Shown here: positions 16,769 through 23,528 of the stretch, piece after piece
Layout of the letters: the number at the start of each line of letters is the position of its first letter
Position numbering within the stretch: the first letter of the stretch is position 1
Source of the DNA: an archaeon
GTDB lineage: Archaea; Methanobacteriota_B; Thermococci; Methanofastidiosales; NM3
Assembly (NCBI GenBank): GCA_004212155.1
Contig: RXIG01000021.1
Coordinates: 1 to 42,173 of the forward strand
Length of the DNA stretch: 42,173 bases
Reading direction: 5' to 3'
Notes under the pieces: model-generated
Databases searched by the model: none
What the model was told of the DNA's origin: nothing
What the model saw: only the letters and a program-made list of their open reading frames with translations
Position numbers and translations under genes: made by a program

Positions 16769-16803
16769 AATACAATGAAATGTGGGGTGGAGCAGATGAT
16801 TTC

Positions 16804-19395
16804 ATGTCAGCGCCAAAGACGATAGATGAATTGTACGAGGAATGCCGCGATTTCGAGATGGTCGTGACCAACGACACGGCCCTTGCCCGCGCCCTTAATA
16901 GAAAACGAGAAGGGCCCATGGTAGGGCGCTGGGCCGTCACCCCTCGCCAGCTTGCGATAAACCATGCTGCCATGCATGTCGATGAACCCCTCTGTTCCGA
17001 GGCGGAGCTCATAAAGCGCATAGCTCACTCGCTCGGTCTGCCACTCGCATATTCGCACCAGTGCGTGCTGAGGGTCAGGGACGCCCTTAGATGCGCACGG
17101 TCAGTACGTGGCCTGCTCACAAGCGATGAACGGAGAGTGCATGACGTATTGCTGAGCCTGCCTTCGCTTGAGGCGGTCATGATGTCGTTTGACCATTCTG
17201 TGCTCCCCGCGCCGCTTGGCGTCATCGGCGATGGGCTCTTTGATGCGCTCGACCTGCGCGTCTTGCCGCCATCGTATGCATCCGTGTCCGCATTCAAGGA
17301 TGCGCCGTTCACGCTTCCCTCATTCTTCGGAGCCGACTCGCACGAGGAGGTCGTGCGCTACGTATGCGACCACGTCACGAGCGACAATCAGGACGACATC
17401 GCAATCGTGGTCGACAAGGGGGGCGCCTACCACTCTTCGATTCTCTCGGTGCTGCAGCAGAGAGGGTTCACGGTCAACCTCGCGATGCAGCTCAACGAAC
17501 ACCTCATGGTACGCTCACTCCATGGCCTCATCAGCGCCGCCCTGGAATACCCTCGCCTGCGTGTTAGCGACGTTCGACCGTTCTTTGGCATATTCAACAT
17601 CGACATGCCCCTCAAATACGACAAATATCATGTCGATGCCGCCCTGCCAGACCCATCTCCTCGCTATGAGCGGCTCAAAGAGCTCCTCTCCGAGATACCG
17701 AACATGACCTATGGCGACGTCATATGGCGTATCAGCGAGAATGCGGGCACCTTTCCCGAAGAACTCAATGATACCATTCGCACGCTGGGGTTCTACGACA
17801 CACCAGTTACGAGACGTTCGTTCGAGGAGCTCTCATACTGCATCATGAACTTCGACATAGCGCTCCAACGCCCGCGACGGGGTGTCGTGCTCACCGATGC
17901 TCACAATTCCATGTATGTCGACAGGCCGATATGCATCTTCGTTGGGCTCGACGCAGAGTGGAGGCGGCGCCTTCCCTCTATCCCCCTTAACGATACGCAC
18001 GAGATCCAAGCCACGCACGTCAATGAGTTCAAGATACTCCTTACACAGGGCGAGGCGAGCCGTGCGGTCGTGGCGCTCAGGAAGAACGGCGAGGTGGTGA
18101 TGCCATGTCAGTACTTCTCACTCATCCTTGAAGGTCCTGTCGAGGACTTCTTCCATCCTACGTTTGATACCTATCGCGTGACGGTGCCGCTTCCATCTGT
18201 GGATCGCATGCAGGCACCGATCGCGGCCGAGGCGACGGAATGGGACGGCCCTTTCTCGCAAAGTTCCCTCAATCGCTTCATGGAATGCCCGAAACGATTC
18301 GAATACGGACGCCTCGTGTCAACTGCGGAGGCGCCTGCGATGATGAAAGGGCGCCTCATTCATGAATTTGCCGAACTGTATCTTTCCCATCCTGCACTCG
18401 TGCGCGAACGCGGGGACCGTTACTTCGCATCAGTGCTCGCCGAGGAGTATGCCAAGCTCGTGACTGACGAGCAGGCATCGCTTGCCACCTCATCGTTTCT
18501 CATGGGGATTCGTATGATGCGGGCCTACCTCGATTCGCTCGAGCTCGGCGAGCCGCCCCGATTCGAGAAACGCCCAAAGGACAACACGATCGCGCGCCGC
18601 CTTGGCGTCGATGCCTCGACGCCGTACGGTGAGGTGCGCTTCACGTCGTCGAACCACCCCGTGATGGGATATATCGACCTTCTCTTGAACAACAATCACA
18701 TCGTGGATTACAAGACGGGGGCGCGGCCCAAGAGCACAAAGAGGATCATGCGCGAACTCCATGCGTGGCTCCATCGCGACAGGGTCGACGTCCAGCCGAT
18801 CCTCTATCTGCTCGCATTATGCGAGCAGGTCCCCAATACGGAATTGACGTTCACATACTTCCACCCCTATGCCGACATGGAACGCGCCATAGAGGGAGAA
18901 CCACCATCAGCAAAAAACTGCGTCACCGTTTCATACGTCCCCACGACATTTCATGAGTTCCTTGCAGACGAGCGTTCCCTGGATACGTATCTTGACACGA
19001 AGTCGAATCAGGCCTTCGTAAAGAAGGTAGGAAGGGAGACTGTCATGTCGTTTCTCAAGGACCACCCCCCGACGCTCGAGGACCAGTTCCTCGCCCCTCA
19101 TGGTGATTGCCCATGGATCGATGAATTCATCTCCTATATACGACTGCACAACGAAACGAAGACTGTGACCGACAATGCTCGCTCCTTTGCTCAAAGCATT
19201 ATCAAGAAACGCAGGGGGGAGAACACAGAGGTGCGTCTGTTCAGGGACGACCTCGACTTGTTCGCAGCGATCGTAGAAAAACGTCACCAGCAGGTTGGTG
19301 AATTCATGGCCACAGACTTTTCCGCAGCGCCACTTGATAGAAAGATATGCGACTCGTGCGAGTTTGCCGACCACTGCATCGGGAGGTTCTGGTAA
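16804..19395 (+). CDS. AddB-like protein with iron-sulfur RecB-family nuclease domain
   Basis: An 863-residue protein. The C-terminal third is a PD-(D/E)XK nuclease of the RecB/AddB type: 'SSLNRFMECPKRFEYG', 'GRLIHEFAEL' with His520 and Glu524, Asp625 in 'GYIDLL', Asp635-x-Lys637 in 'VDYKTG', and 'QPILYL'. Cys495 together with Cys849-x2-Cys852-x5-Cys858 reproduces the four-cysteine iron-sulfur 'staple' spacing of AddB. The N-terminal two thirds resembles a degenerate UvrD fold ('VVTNDTALARALNRK') but shows no Walker A or DExx motif, so it probably does not hydrolyse ATP. The gene lies 1 nt before a complete AddA-like helicase gene. The frame opens at 16780; 16804 is preferred from the promoter position. 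Confidence 0.85.
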   Translation: MSAPKTIDELYEECRDFEMVVTNDTALARALNRKREGPMVGRWAVTPRQLAINHAAMHVDEPLCSEAELIKRIAHSLGLPLAYSHQCVLRVRDALRCARSVRGLLTSDERRVHDVLLSLPSLEAVMMSFDHSVLPAPLGVIGDGLFDALDLRVLPPSYASVSAFKDAPFTLPSFFGADSHEEVVRYVCDHVTSDNQDDIAIVVDKGGAYHSSILSVLQQRGFTVNLAMQLNEHLMVRSLHGLISAALEYPRLRVSDVRPFFGIFNIDMPLKYDKYHVDAALPDPSPRYERLKELLSEIPNMTYGDVIWRISENAGTFPEELNDTIRTLGFYDTPVTRRSFEELSYCIMNFDIALQRPRRGVVLTDAHNSMYVDRPICIFVGLDAEWRRRLPSIPLNDTHEIQATHVNEFKILLTQGEASRAVVALRKNGEVVMPCQYFSLILEGPVEDFFHPTFDTYRVTVPLPSVDRMQAPIAAEATEWDGPFSQSSLNRFMECPKRFEYGRLVSTAEAPAMMKGRLIHEFAELYLSHPALVRERGDRYFASVLAEEYAKLVTDEQASLATSSFLMGIRMMRAYLDSLELGEPPRFEKRPKDNTIARRLGVDASTPYGEVRFTSSNHPVMGYIDLLLNNNHIVDYKTGARPKSTKRIMRELHAWLHRDRVDVQPILYLLALCEQVPNTELTFTYFHPYADMERAIEGEPPSAKNCVTVSYVPTTFHEFLADERSLDTYLDTKSNQAFVKKVGRETVMSFLKDHPPTLEDQFLAPHGDCPWIDEFISYIRLHNETKTVTDNARSFAQSIIKKRRGENTEVRLFRDDLDLFAAIVEKRHQQVGEFMATDFSAAPLDRKICDSCEFADHCIGRFW

Positions 19396-19396
19396 C

Positions 19397-22252
19397 ATGG
19401 CCTCCAACCTAGCACAAGAGGAGGTCATACGAACGACGGAGGGGATACTCCTCGTCGATGCGGGCCCCGGCACGGGAAAGACGTACACGATCACGAAACG
19501 CTACATCTCCATACTCGAAAATGACCCAAACGCCACACCGGAAGACATCCTGCTCCTCACGTTCTCGAACAATGCGGCAGACAACATGAAGCGCAAGGTC
19601 ATGAGCGAACTGACAAGGCGCGATCCCTCTACATTATGGGATGCCAAGATATCGACGTTCCATGCATTTTGCAAATCGATCCTTACCACATACACGTACA
19701 AGGTGCCTTCACTGCTCGGGTATGGTGAGCGGCTCTCGCCATCGTTTTCCATTCTGGAAAACGACGTTGGCGAGCATATGTTCTTCTCGAAGGTCTACAA
19801 TGCGTTCTACGAACGCCACAAGGACACTCATCGTGAGATGGTTTCCATTGTGGGCGATGACAGTGATCAGGTGCTGCGCATCATCAAGCAGCTGCTCAGC
19901 AAGGGCATCTTCCCCACGCGAGACGGCTGGTTCCTCGACGGGCGGTCGCACCTGGAGGGAGACTGGGAATCGTTTTGTGTTCGCATGCGTGTCGAGAACA
20001 CGTGCCCCATGGGTAAGAGGGGTCCGACGCAGGCTCGGATGCTCAAGCGCCTCAAGACGCGTCGTGCCAACAAGATCTATCTCGATGCCCCTTCCACACT
20101 CCTTGAAGGAAAAAACATATCTGAGGACGACATCAGGGAAGCGTTTCACGAAGACCGGGAAAAGGAGATCTCGTTTATCCATGACATATATCTCTTCTAT
20201 ATAAAGCGCGCCATCCGCGCCGGCATGCTGCCGTTTGACTTCCTCATCATGCTCGTCTTCCTGATACTCCACGATGATGACGACATCCGCAGGTCGGTGG
20301 CGTTTGACTATGTCATGGTCGATGAGTTCCAAGATACCAACGAGATGCAGTTCATGCTCACGCTGCTTCTCATGAAACGCAACAATCTGTGTGCGGTAGG
20401 CGACTGGAAACAGGGGATCTACGGGTTCAGGTACGCCTCGATAGACAACATACTCCAATTTCAGGAACGCATCAGACGTTATAAGGCATTGCTCAATGAA
20501 GGCAGGACGCGCATACACTTTCCTGTCGATGTCGATGCGCGCGAGTTCACGATAAACTACAGGAGCACGCAAACGCTCCTCGACACGTCGTTTGGGTCGC
20601 TCTACATCGAGGCCACAAACGAAGATGCTGTCGAGGCCGAGACGCTCGACGAGGCCATCACGCCGCTTGTCGCACACCGTGAGGATGAACACATCTCCGG
20701 CGTACGATTCTACACTGCAGACGACAACGATGCGGAAGTGGAGATGATTATCTCTCTCATCCAGGACATGTTGGCAAATGACGATATGCGCATCATCGAC
20801 GAAGGGGCCGAGGGATGTTGCCTGCGCCCGATACGCTACGAGGATATCGCCGTGCTATCACGGACAAGGGATTTTGGCCTTCAACTGCAAGAACGCGCTG
20901 CACACTACGGCGTGCCCATCGTCTTCGAAGGGGGAACCGAGATATTCAACTCAGAAGAGGGATTGTTGTTGCTGGCATGGATGCGCTTGCTCATCGACCC
21001 CCATGACAAGCGCGCATGGACAGTGCTCCTTGAACGTGAGGGGCACCCCTACAAACGAAGAATGGATATCTTATCAGGGCACGCATATCCGCTCCACCTC
21101 GTAGAACGTCTGGACGAGCTTCGAAGGAAGGAAGGCACGATCATCGAGTTCATATCGCGCATTTACGGCTTCTATGACATGGCAACGCCCGTATCCCACG
21201 CCATCACTCACACCATATCGTCGATGTTTGCCTCGTCATCGATCTCGTTCGAGGAGATATGCTTTTTTATCGAGGAGAACATCAGACGCAAGAAGACGTA
21301 TGCCATCGACACCCAAGCGAGCGAAGGTGCCGTGACGGTCCAGACGCTGCATGGGGCAAAGGGTCTTGAGTATCCTGTCGTATTCATCTCAAACTGCAAC
21401 AAAGACCGGTTCCCCTCCTCGGTCTCGGACTCTTCGCTATTCACATACGATACACGCCTCGGCCTGCGGTGTTCCAAGACGCATGGCACGCGCGGTGACT
21501 ACAGCGCGATCTTTGACAACTGGCACAATGATGTCTTGCGGTGCGGCATTCCCACCCTCTACGACGAGGAACGCAGACTCCTTTTCGTCGGGATGACACG
21601 GGCGCGCCAATACCTGCTGTTTACCGCACACAAGCCCTCCTCGTTCTTCACGCGACTGGCAGAATCACACAACGTCGTGCATATCGACGACCCACGCCCC
21701 ACACAGCGTGAATGCGCCGAGGGCCAGGAACGCTACGAGCCGCCGCATCTTGTCTACCGCGGATCCACCCCCGTGCAGGCACAGGTGCACTCGGTGCTTC
21801 GCATCATGCCGGAACGATCGGGGAGAGGAAAGCACTACGGTTCCTCGGTCCACTTTGCTGCAGAGCGTGCAGCGCGGGGTGCCCGGGTAGAGGCGGACAA
21901 CGAGGACATTGGGGCAATCCTACGATACATCGATGGCCTCGATGCGCAAAAGCTTTGGCCCGAGGCCGAGTGCGTGCTTCCCATAGCCAATATGCGCCTA
22001 TCGGGCACCATCGACCTGCTCGTGTTCCACGACACGGCAATCGACATCGTGGACTACAAAACCGACCTCACGGACGCCAATCTCGAAGAGTACCGTATCC
22101 AGATCTCCTGCTACTACCATGCAGTGCGGGGCGTTTACGACGTTCCGGTCAGATGCATCGTGTTCTTTACCGCCCGTGATGAACGCATCGTCGTAGATCC
22201 CATACCGTTTGACGAGCTTGAAACGCTCGTCAAGGGGCGGCAAGGGCAATGA
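19397..22252 (+). CDS. AddA-like UvrD/Rep helicase with C-terminal nuclease domain
   Basis: A 951-residue superfamily 1A helicase-nuclease. Helicase motifs in order: 'QEEVIRTTEG' (Q motif), 'AGPGTGKT' at residues 22-29, 'LLTFSNNAADNMKRKV', 'VDEFQDTNE' near 309, 'GDWKQGIYGFR' near 335, 'NYRSTQTLLD' near 387, 'VQTLHGAKGLEYPVV' near 650 and 'LLFVGMTRARQYL' near 730. The end holds a PD-(D/E)XK nuclease: 'GSSVHFAAERA' near 815, 'GTIDLL' near 869, 'VDYKTD' near 886 and 'QISCYY'. It lacks the iron-sulfur cysteines, as AddA does. With the preceding gene it should form a dimer that resects double-strand ends. The start at 19397 follows the upstream stop by 1 nt, with GGGAGG before it. Confidence 0.92.
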   Translation: MASNLAQEEVIRTTEGILLVDAGPGTGKTYTITKRYISILENDPNATPEDILLLTFSNNAADNMKRKVMSELTRRDPSTLWDAKISTFHAFCKSILTTYTYKVPSLLGYGERLSPSFSILENDVGEHMFFSKVYNAFYERHKDTHREMVSIVGDDSDQVLRIIKQLLSKGIFPTRDGWFLDGRSHLEGDWESFCVRMRVENTCPMGKRGPTQARMLKRLKTRRANKIYLDAPSTLLEGKNISEDDIREAFHEDREKEISFIHDIYLFYIKRAIRAGMLPFDFLIMLVFLILHDDDDIRRSVAFDYVMVDEFQDTNEMQFMLTLLLMKRNNLCAVGDWKQGIYGFRYASIDNILQFQERIRRYKALLNEGRTRIHFPVDVDAREFTINYRSTQTLLDTSFGSLYIEATNEDAVEAETLDEAITPLVAHREDEHISGVRFYTADDNDAEVEMIISLIQDMLANDDMRIIDEGAEGCCLRPIRYEDIAVLSRTRDFGLQLQERAAHYGVPIVFEGGTEIFNSEEGLLLLAWMRLLIDPHDKRAWTVLLEREGHPYKRRMDILSGHAYPLHLVERLDELRRKEGTIIEFISRIYGFYDMATPVSHAITHTISSMFASSSISFEEICFFIEENIRRKKTYAIDTQASEGAVTVQTLHGAKGLEYPVVFISNCNKDRFPSSVSDSSLFTYDTRLGLRCSKTHGTRGDYSAIFDNWHNDVLRCGIPTLYDEERRLLFVGMTRARQYLLFTAHKPSSFFTRLAESHNVVHIDDPRPTQRECAEGQERYEPPHLVYRGSTPVQAQVHSVLRIMPERSGRGKHYGSSVHFAAERAARGARVEADNEDIGAILRYIDGLDAQKLWPEAECVLPIANMRLSGTIDLLVFHDTAIDIVDYKTDLTDANLEEYRIQISCYYHAVRGVYDVPVRCIVFFTARDERIVVDPIPFDELETLVKGRQGQ

Positions 22253-22282: not shown

Positions 22283-23023
22283 ATGGAAAGCGAGATGTCA
22301 CGCTTCAACAGGATGGTCGAGGACTTCATCAAGACGACCTATGAGGACTTCAATCCTCATCCGCTCGTCATATGCGACACGTCTGACCTTGAACGCTACG
22401 CAGATATATTTTCCCTGCTGTGGAAACGCTACAACGAGCGGTGGCGCTACGACCTCCATGGAACGCTCAAGGAGGCTGAGATCATGTTCGACCAGCTGTT
22501 CAAGGAGGTTGAAACGAAAAAGTTCCAACCCATCGTCGACCACCTGTTTTGCGTGACCGACAAGAGCGATGAGAACAGCTGCGACTTCCTCGCCAAGGTC
22601 GTATCAGACCTTGAATCGATCGTCGACCACGAACGCAAGAAGGTGGAGCTGCGAAAGAAGCGGGTCTCGATCATATCGTCGATCCTCTCGTTTGCAGACA
22701 TCATCATCTCGGTAGCACTGATCGTTGCCATATCGTTTGTCTCACACATTGGGCAGGACTTCATCGGCACCGTATGGGTCGGTGTGGCGTTCATCGTTCT
22801 TGTCGCGTTCTTCAAGGTGTCACTTGACCGTTTCTACATCCTGCCGCTGATACGCAAGCGGGGCTGGAAGCTTTACCGCAACGTGGTGCGCAGCTACGAA
22901 TCGATCATCGCGAAGATCGAGGGGATATCCCTTGTGGTCTGCCAGTCGATGCAACGCGGCGACGACGAAATGTACACGCTGCACCTCATATCAAAAGGGT
23001 TGGAGCGATTGGATGAGGAGTGA
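22283..23023 (+). CDS. uncharacterised two-helix membrane protein
   Basis: I do not recognise this 246-residue protein. Residues 1-125 are soluble and charged, ending in a Lys/Arg-rich helix ('VDHERKKVELRKKRVS'). Two hydrophobic helices follow at about 134-155 ('FADIIISVALIVAISFVSHI') and 161-182 ('GTVWVGVAFIVLVAFFKV'), and a further basic segment and helical tail face the same side. The layout, with both ends on the same (probably cytoplasmic) side and a long N-terminal helical domain, suits a membrane-tethered scaffold or sensor, but no enzymatic motif is visible. It overlaps the uracil-DNA glycosylase gene by 11 nt, so the two are co-expressed. Confidence 0.7.
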   Translation: MESEMSRFNRMVEDFIKTTYEDFNPHPLVICDTSDLERYADIFSLLWKRYNERWRYDLHGTLKEAEIMFDQLFKEVETKKFQPIVDHLFCVTDKSDENSCDFLAKVVSDLESIVDHERKKVELRKKRVSIISSILSFADIIISVALIVAISFVSHIGQDFIGTVWVGVAFIVLVAFFKVSLDRFYILPLIRKRGWKLYRNVVRSYESIIAKIEGISLVVCQSMQRGDDEMYTLHLISKGLERLDEE

Positions 23024-23528
23024 GGACGCCCTCGACGACGTAGCAGAGCGTGTGCGCAGCTGCACGCAGTGCCCGCTGTCCAGCGTGCGCATCAACGCCG
23101 TGCCGGGGGAAGGGCCAGCCGACGCGCGCGTCATGCTTGTTGGACAGAATCCTGGCAACGAGGAGGATAGGGCGGGCAGGCCGTTTGTCGGCAGGTCAGG
23201 GGCATATCTTGACGATGTACTTGCACGCCACGGGATACCACGCTCAGCACTCTTTATCACATCGATCGTCAAATGCACGAGCCCGGGCAACAGACGCCCG
23301 TCCAATGAGGAGGTCATAACATGCATGCCATACCTTGAGGCACAGGTGACGATCATCTCACCAAGCGTGATCGTCGCGCTTGGGCGCGTCGCGCAGATGA
23401 TGCCCCGCTACGACGAGATCGAGTATATCGAGACGTACCACCCTGCGGCGGCGATGCGATTCCCTCGGTTTCGTTCTCGGTTCGAGGATGACATCTCAAA
23501 GGTAAAGACATATGTAGGACGTCCATAA
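23013..23528 (+). CDS. family-4 uracil-DNA glycosylase
   Basis: A 171-residue iron-sulfur uracil-DNA glycosylase, starting base excision repair at deaminated cytosines. Cysteines 17, 20, 88 and 104 give the CX2C-X67-C-X15-C pattern that binds the 4Fe-4S cluster. Also seen: 'RAGRPFVGRSGAYLDDVL', 'FITSIVKCTSPGNRRPSNEE', 'VIVALGR' and the second active-site motif 'HPAAAMR'. The first active-site motif reads 'VGQNPGNEED' where family 4 usually has GEAPG, so the usual Glu is Gln. The ATG at 23013 lies within the end of the preceding gene; the open frame before it is a shadow. Confidence 0.88.
   Translation: MRSEDALDDVAERVRSCTQCPLSSVRINAVPGEGPADARVMLVGQNPGNEEDRAGRPFVGRSGAYLDDVLARHGIPRSALFITSIVKCTSPGNRRPSNEEVITCMPYLEAQVTIISPSVIVALGRVAQMMPRYDEIEYIETYHPAAAMRFPRFRSRFEDDISKVKTYVGRP

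Follow-up and report, generated by a model that had tools for sequence, protein, structure and literature searches.

An AddAB-type helicase-nuclease gene pair in archaea and a haloarchaeal branch that lacks the AddB iron-sulfur motif

AddAB and RecBCD are regarded as bacterial machines, and a separate archaeal AddAB lineage would be a second candidate machine for DNA-end processing in archaea. In AdnAB of Actinobacteria two UvrD-like proteins, both carrying a nuclease, form a heterodimer, and AdnA retains its ATPase site. In RecBCD the nuclease of RecC is inactivated (PMC1185551). Fusions and operons of UvrD with Cas4-like nucleases are known in bacteria and mesophilic archaea (PMC5704561). 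Archaeal repair reviews, in the relevant passages, treat Mre11-Rad50 and HerA-NurA and name RecBCD only as bacterial (PMC7690668, PMC7776575). In the literature searched, which mostly excluded subscription papers, no description of an archaeal AddAB or an archaeal RecBCD was found.

The gene pair studied here lies in the window, by which we mean the whole 42,173-nucleotide stretch of DNA analysed, from an archaeon of the Methanofastidiosales. Its features are the following.

16804..19395, + strand: AddB-like gene, 863 aa; degenerate UvrD-type helicase half, then C-terminal PD-(D/E)XK nuclease, four cluster cysteines
16804..18213, + strand: helicase-like half of the AddB-like protein, residues 1-470, without Walker A and without DExx box
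18253..19377, + strand: PD-(D/E)XK nuclease domain of the AddB-like protein, residues 484-858 (Pfam PDDEXK_1, E=1.5e-18)
18286..18288, + strand: C495, first (upstream) cluster cysteine of the AddB-like protein, within ECPKRFEY
18667..18714, + strand: AddB-like nuclease motif GYID(625)LLLNNNHIVD(635)YK(637), from the alignment of archaeal homologues
19348..19377, + strand: CX2CX5C of the AddB-like protein (C849, C852, C858), predicted [4Fe-4S] staple
19397..22252, + strand: AddA-like gene, 951 aa; SF1A (UvrD-type) helicase, then C-terminal PD-(D/E)XK nuclease
19457..19483, + strand: AddA-like Walker A, DAGPGTGKT; G23 and G25-T29 invariant in 14 homologues
20318..20335, + strand: AddA-like Walker B, VDEFQD
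20396..20431, + strand: AddA-like helicase motif III, VGDWKQGIYGFR
21335..21373, + strand: AddA-like helicase motif V, TVQTLHGAKGLEY
21572..21604, + strand: AddA-like helicase motif VI, RRLLFVGMTRA
22004..22060, + strand: AddA-like nuclease motif GTID(873)...VD(886)YK(888); its catalytic residues and H819, Q902 and Y906 are invariant in 14 homologues

Both genes are on the same strand, and one base separates the AddB-like stop codon from the AddA-like start (TAA C ATG). The AddB-like start at 16804 is preferred over the in-frame ATG at 16780 because homologues align from APK(T/S)I-ELYEE onward. In the AddA-like protein Pfam recognises UvrD-helicase (E=5.4e-51), UvrD_C (1.8e-29) and a C-terminal PDDEXK_1 (6.4e-6), and in the AddB-like protein PDDEXK_1 is the sole match above the cut-off. 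These domains confirm the two adjacent genes, a UvrD helicase-nuclease and an AddB-like nuclease, that the earlier note had read at this place; the UvrD protein, taken there as the first, is however the second, the AddB-like gene preceding it. The CX2CX5C staple and the fourth upstream cysteine of the same note were found as C849-X2-C852-X5-C858 and C495, and all four cysteines are kept in near relatives. Residues H520, E524, D625, D635, K637, Q664 and Y668 of the AddB-like nuclease are invariant among 15 archaeal homologues. In the AddA-like protein the SF1A helicase set (Walker A, DEFQD, motifs III, V and VI) is complete and conserved, as are the GxxD/DYK/QxxxY residues of its C-terminal RecB-family nuclease, invariant in 14 homologues.

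The locus resembles AddAB (RexAB; structures 3u44 and 4cei) in its two adjacent genes with B before A, in the single motor with full SF1A motifs, in the intact catalytic residues of both C-terminal nucleases and in the four-cysteine cluster motif of AddB. Moreover, AddAB chains B and A are the best structural matches of the AddB-like and AddA-like proteins, respectively. It differs in that the archaeal proteins are shorter (863 and 951 aa versus 893-1064 and 1046-1248 aa in the intact bacterial panel), in line with the remark made earlier on the AddB-like partner, that archaeal AddA is a separate clade on a long stem and that one archaeal AddB branch has no cluster. AdnAB is also similar, AdnA being the next-best fold after AddB, but the AddB-like protein has no ATPase site, unlike AdnA. 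With RecBCD the pair shares RecB, the next match of the AddA-like protein after AddA, and RecC, which is among the structure matches of the AddB-like protein; the nuclease residues of the archaeal partner are intact, in contrast to those of RecC. UvrD-Cas4-like associations (PMC5704561) likewise link a UvrD-type helicase to a cluster-bearing RecB/Cas4-like nuclease, but in the archaeal pair the motor itself carries one nuclease, and the other sits on the partner protein, joined to a dead-helicase half. HerA-NurA and Mre11-Rad50 share with the pair only the presumed job of processing DNA ends; their proteins are unrelated to it.

The identity of the AddB-like protein emerged only from profile-profile and fold comparison. 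Searches of PDB sequences with the protein by phmmer and with its family profile gave no meaningful match, and NCBIfam gave no match. The AddA-like protein scores 170.8 bits against the NCBIfam AddA/AddB equivalogs (TIGR02785, TIGR02773, TIGR02784, TIGR02786), which does not reach the cut-off of 707.65; divergent bacterial AddAB also fall short of these cut-offs. Sequence identity of the pair to any characterised AddAB is low. We compared a profile of 15 archaeal AddB-like proteins with one of eight bacterial AddB, chosen as the genes upstream of bacterial AddA matches; four of the five bacterial members tested score with NCBIfam AddB models and the fifth with a related model, all below curated cut-offs. 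The two profiles match by hhalign at 98.7% (E 3.8e-16) over 457 columns, collinear over the helicase-like half and the nuclease, with AddB-like residues 1-190 lying outside the alignment. Against archaeal AddA the same family reaches only 18%. On its own, the helicase half matches the corresponding part of bacterial AddB at 95.1% (E 3e-8), compared with 0.8% for the archaeal AddA helicase and at most 0.1% in five column-shuffled controls. The AddA-like family matches bacterial AddA at 100% (E 2.1e-88).

Fold comparison gave the same assignment. The AlphaFold2 model of the AddB-like protein (pLDDT 80, 13 sequences) was compared with 350,542 PDB chains, and the best five matches are all AddB of AddAB (E 5e-14 to 1e-12), followed by AdnA, UvrD and RecC. 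For the predicted AddA-like structure (pLDDT 70) the best four matches are all AddA (E 2e-36 to 2e-30), followed by RecB. It is important to note that both are monomer predictions with pTM of about 0.5 and that global TM-scores of their top matches are 0.34-0.49. Low global scores are expected, because the models are multidomain with uncertain domain arrangement. Since the TM-scores are modest and the arrangement is unreliable, it is the ranking of matches, not the TM-score, that we take as fold evidence. A tree made by a quick method places 16 archaeal AddA together in a single clade (support 100), whose stem is long (1.47 changes per column). This clade and bacterial AddA group together with support 99, leaving bacterial UvrD/PcrA outside. 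This supports the view that archaeal AddA proteins are a separate, apparently divergent lineage.

Profile, structure and tree thus agree on a predicted one-to-one match, AddB-like with AddB and AddA-like with AddA, and the suggestion of an AddAB-type pair in the earlier note is borne out by all three. Of the checks that it had proposed, the profile comparison places the proteins with AddB and AddA, and the tree places the AddA-like protein with AddA and not with UvrD. Its idea of a scaffold with a nuclease, or a divergent lineage, also holds: judged by motifs and modelled fold, the AddB-like partner combines a dead UvrD-type helicase with intact nuclease residues and all four cluster cysteines. 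A motif scan for Walker A and DExx box found neither in it, as had been noticed. The absence had been presented as remarkable, which it is not. No Walker A pattern was found in 12 archaeal AddB-like homologues (one of them has an unrelated MLDEA string) or in any of the six bacterial AddB of the panel with an intact N-terminus, two further ones being cut by contig ends. Lack of Walker A is therefore ordinary for AddB. Altogether, we think it very probable that the products of the two genes form a helicase-nuclease heterodimer of the AddAB type.

The pair is present in two more genomes of the same genus and in one of the same family (B/A identity 90/93%, about 30/44% and about 32/42%), and because it is conserved in these three relatives it is a real archaeal gene pair and not an assembly accident. 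In the contigs C112 and C212 of one relative (G003) there are two AddB-like ends, 91% identical over 230 residues, representing a recent duplicate or a strain mixture. The pair is a widespread archaeal family and not peculiar to the genome of the window; the earlier note had missed this, together with the cluster-less branch described below. The AddB-like gene occurs in four of 115 genomes of the window's phylum, all in one family, in 45/394 sampled genomes of the haloarchaeal phylum and in 43/390 of Thermoplasmatota. Among the matches listed in a genome-wide scan with the AddA profile, the archaeal relatives (Haloarchaea, Methanomassiliicoccales) have E 1e-128 or better and the next are bacterial UvrD/AddA proteins at E 1e-32 or worse, which is a sharp break. 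The order AddB then AddA is constant wherever both genes are readable (window family, 12 loci, 9 haloarchaeal and at least 28 Thermoplasmatota loci, annotated plasmids). In the window's genome and in Methanomassiliicoccales the pair appears to be chromosomal. The haloarchaeal pair is patchy, sometimes multicopy and often plasmid-borne. One haloarchaeal family has AddB-like matches in 72 of 148 species, up to three per genome, some haloarchaeal matches being broken (fragments or internal stop codons), and a near-full-length copy is found on 33 haloarchaeal plasmids, where the usual annotation is 'PD-(D/E)XK nuclease family protein', with an 'ATP-dependent DNA helicase' alongside. No AddB-like relatives were found in viral contigs and phage records.

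The earlier note had called such a pair unusual in archaea that resect ends with HerA-NurA and Mre11-Rad50. A substitution for this machinery does not fit the window's genome, in which HerA, Mre11 and Rad50 lie in one cluster (L158, contig C19 of G000; Rad50 is named from its own sequence and its place next to Mre11). The pair is therefore an addition to the usual machinery. NurA was undetected by profile search in this genome, in its relatives G001 and G003 and in three Methanomassiliicoccales genomes; this is a weak result, because the HAS-barrel profile likewise missed the HerA of the window's genome, later found by a full-length query. The gap in G000, G001 and G003 is possibly due to a diverged NurA or to incomplete genomes. 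NurA is present in the pair-bearing G002, there as a weak match, and in 11 of 11 haloarchaeal carriers tested. Replacement of HerA-NurA by the pair is ruled out by these carriers and by the HerA-Mre11-Rad50 cluster. By kinship data the window's genome belongs to the same class as the group f5 but to another order, and the NurA of f5 matches solved NurA structures strongly; the NurA structure 3tai is from Pyrococcus. PMC7776575 states that Haloferax volcanii lacks HerA and NurA, contrary to the matches of the NurA profile in our H. volcanii control.

Between the window's genome and G002, identity is 29.9% for the AddB-like and 43.8% for the AddA-like protein, compared with 64.8% for Mre11, 64.5% for HerA and 46.3% for Rad50. 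Sporadic distribution and fast divergence of the pair are not typical of core repair.

One branch of the family differs in its iron-sulfur motif. On the side of the window family and Methanomassiliicoccales, all 28 rows of the AddB tree carry CX2CX5C; on the branch that unites haloarchaea with three genomes from the Thermoplasmatota sample, none of the 23 rows does. The difference is a single change on the tree (support 100), and cutting or masking the columns of the trait itself does not alter this count. Since bacterial AddB mostly carry the motif, the change was probably a loss. In most cluster-less proteins the first cluster cysteine is a serine; Haloquadratum (L024) and one Thermoplasmatota-sample genome (L118) retain it. 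All members of the branch keep the nuclease motifs. In place of the cysteines most of them have a conserved tail, FPxxG..GEPNYRRVDNRDLLL or a close variant, with the core (N/H)(R/K)D(L/M)xL in the deeper members. The tail may take over the stapling. With the nuclease motif retained, the cysteines gone and a conserved tail newly present, this single loss offers a natural experiment on the purpose of the AddB iron-sulfur staple. The three Thermoplasmatota-sample genomes (L113, L116, L118) have cluster-less AddB-like genes that group with the haloarchaeal ones and not with those of Methanomassiliicoccales. Transfer between salt-living archaea is a possible origin of these genes.

Haloarchaea carry two AddAB-type pairs. 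The second one, met in control stretches of pair-bearing plasmids, is longer (1062 and 1212-1222 aa). Over 741 columns its AddB aligns with that of bacteria (E 5.7e-38), and it keeps CX2CX5C; the AddA partner clusters with bacterial AddA (support 100). The longer pair was found in 45 plasmid records, haloarchaeal among the matches listed and including Halobacterium salinarum. Two examples are given here.

L166:261-7110: longer bacterial-type AddAB, Halobiforma lacisalsi plasmid pHLAJ5I
L167:7510-14329: longer bacterial-type AddAB, Natrinema pellirubrum pNATPE02, adjoining BrxA/BrxB of a BREX locus

Because the longer AddB keeps the motif, salt alone does not explain the cluster loss; high salt as a bar to the cluster is ruled out. 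The single loss in the haloarchaeal branch with its conserved tail and the longer AddAB on haloarchaeal plasmids are the new points of this work.

If the proteins work like AddAB, the complex would bind a DNA double-strand end, with the AddA-like subunit as its only motor, moving 3'-5' with ATP. The C-terminal nuclease of this subunit would cut one strand. The AddB-like subunit, a dead helicase, would serve as a scaffold and strand guide, and its own nuclease, presumably held together by the [4Fe-4S] staple, would cut the other strand. The products would be a 3' overhang for RadA-dependent recombination or degraded linear DNA, and a Chi-like signal might play a part. In the window's lineage and in Methanomassiliicoccales the role is probably DNA-end repair, which is favoured because the pair appears chromosomal and stands alongside HerA-Mre11-Rad50 in the window's genome. 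The haloarchaeal pair would be an accessory, often plasmid-borne module, for which plasmid or foreign-DNA turnover is as likely as repair. A wider history can be proposed only tentatively: an ancient short archaeal AddAB lineage, whose haloarchaeal, largely plasmid-borne branch swapped the [4Fe-4S] staple once for a protein-only tail, its role moving from DNA-end repair towards foreign and plasmid DNA turnover. Archaeal AddAB is open to deletion and assay in culturable haloarchaea.

The pair could instead be chiefly an anti-virus or anti-plasmid device, a portable helicase-nuclease degrading foreign linear DNA with repair as a secondary function. Its patchy, sometimes multicopy and partly broken occurrence in haloarchaea, the near-full-length plasmid copies and the rapid divergence are consistent with such a role. 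So is the fact that in Halococcus dombrowskii (L148:1-14555) it directly adjoins BREX-5 genes (PglX, PglZ, helicase), as does the second copy on Halorhabdus pHTIA (L172:7740-13197 with L163:2219-15135). However, defence-type neighbours, read from annotations, occur in 8 of 17 pair regions and, on the same plasmids, in 4 of 12 control stretches, which is not distinguishable. The AddB-like protein matches no PADLOC model beyond Cas4, and defence genes were not recognised around the window copy or, by eye, around three Methanomassiliicoccales-type copies. We consider a mainly defensive role possible but rather doubtful. Housekeeping of plasmids or chromosomes, that is, replication-linked end processing as distinct from break repair or defence, seems still less probable to us. 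Genes for ParA, Orc1/Cdc6 or an integrase are found close to the pair on several haloarchaeal plasmids, but genes of these types are common on such plasmids, control stretches included. Methylases, Abi genes, ParA or Orc1/Cdc6 are frequent around the plasmid-borne pair, but comparison with the control stretches shows no enrichment. The window copy has other neighbours: upstream lies a gene for a SIMPL protein, and downstream one for an orphan protein and one for a uracil-DNA glycosylase.

It is very improbable that the pair is not AddAB by descent and consists of a UvrD helicase that happens to adjoin a Cas4-like nuclease, as in the operons and fusions of PMC5704561. Such associations do exist, and the AddB-like nuclease half taken alone resembles Cas4 and Pfam PDDEXK_1. 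This reading is already contradicted: the partner has 863 aa, its non-nuclease half itself matches the AddB helicase-like region, its best folds are AddB, and the helicase groups with AddA and not with UvrD.

Some further genes lie near the pair. The orphan protein (window 22283-23023, 246 aa, two likely membrane helices) begins 30 bases 3' of the AddA-like gene; a Pfam search with it gave zero matches. It also adjoins the AddA-like gene in the related genome G001 (L010:1297-2064). The uracil-DNA glycosylase gene, of the UDG superfamily (window 22932-23528, Pfam UDG 9.6e-33), is two genes 3' of the pair. In three Thermoplasmatota copies a gene that reads as P-type-ATPase-like lies downstream of the pair.
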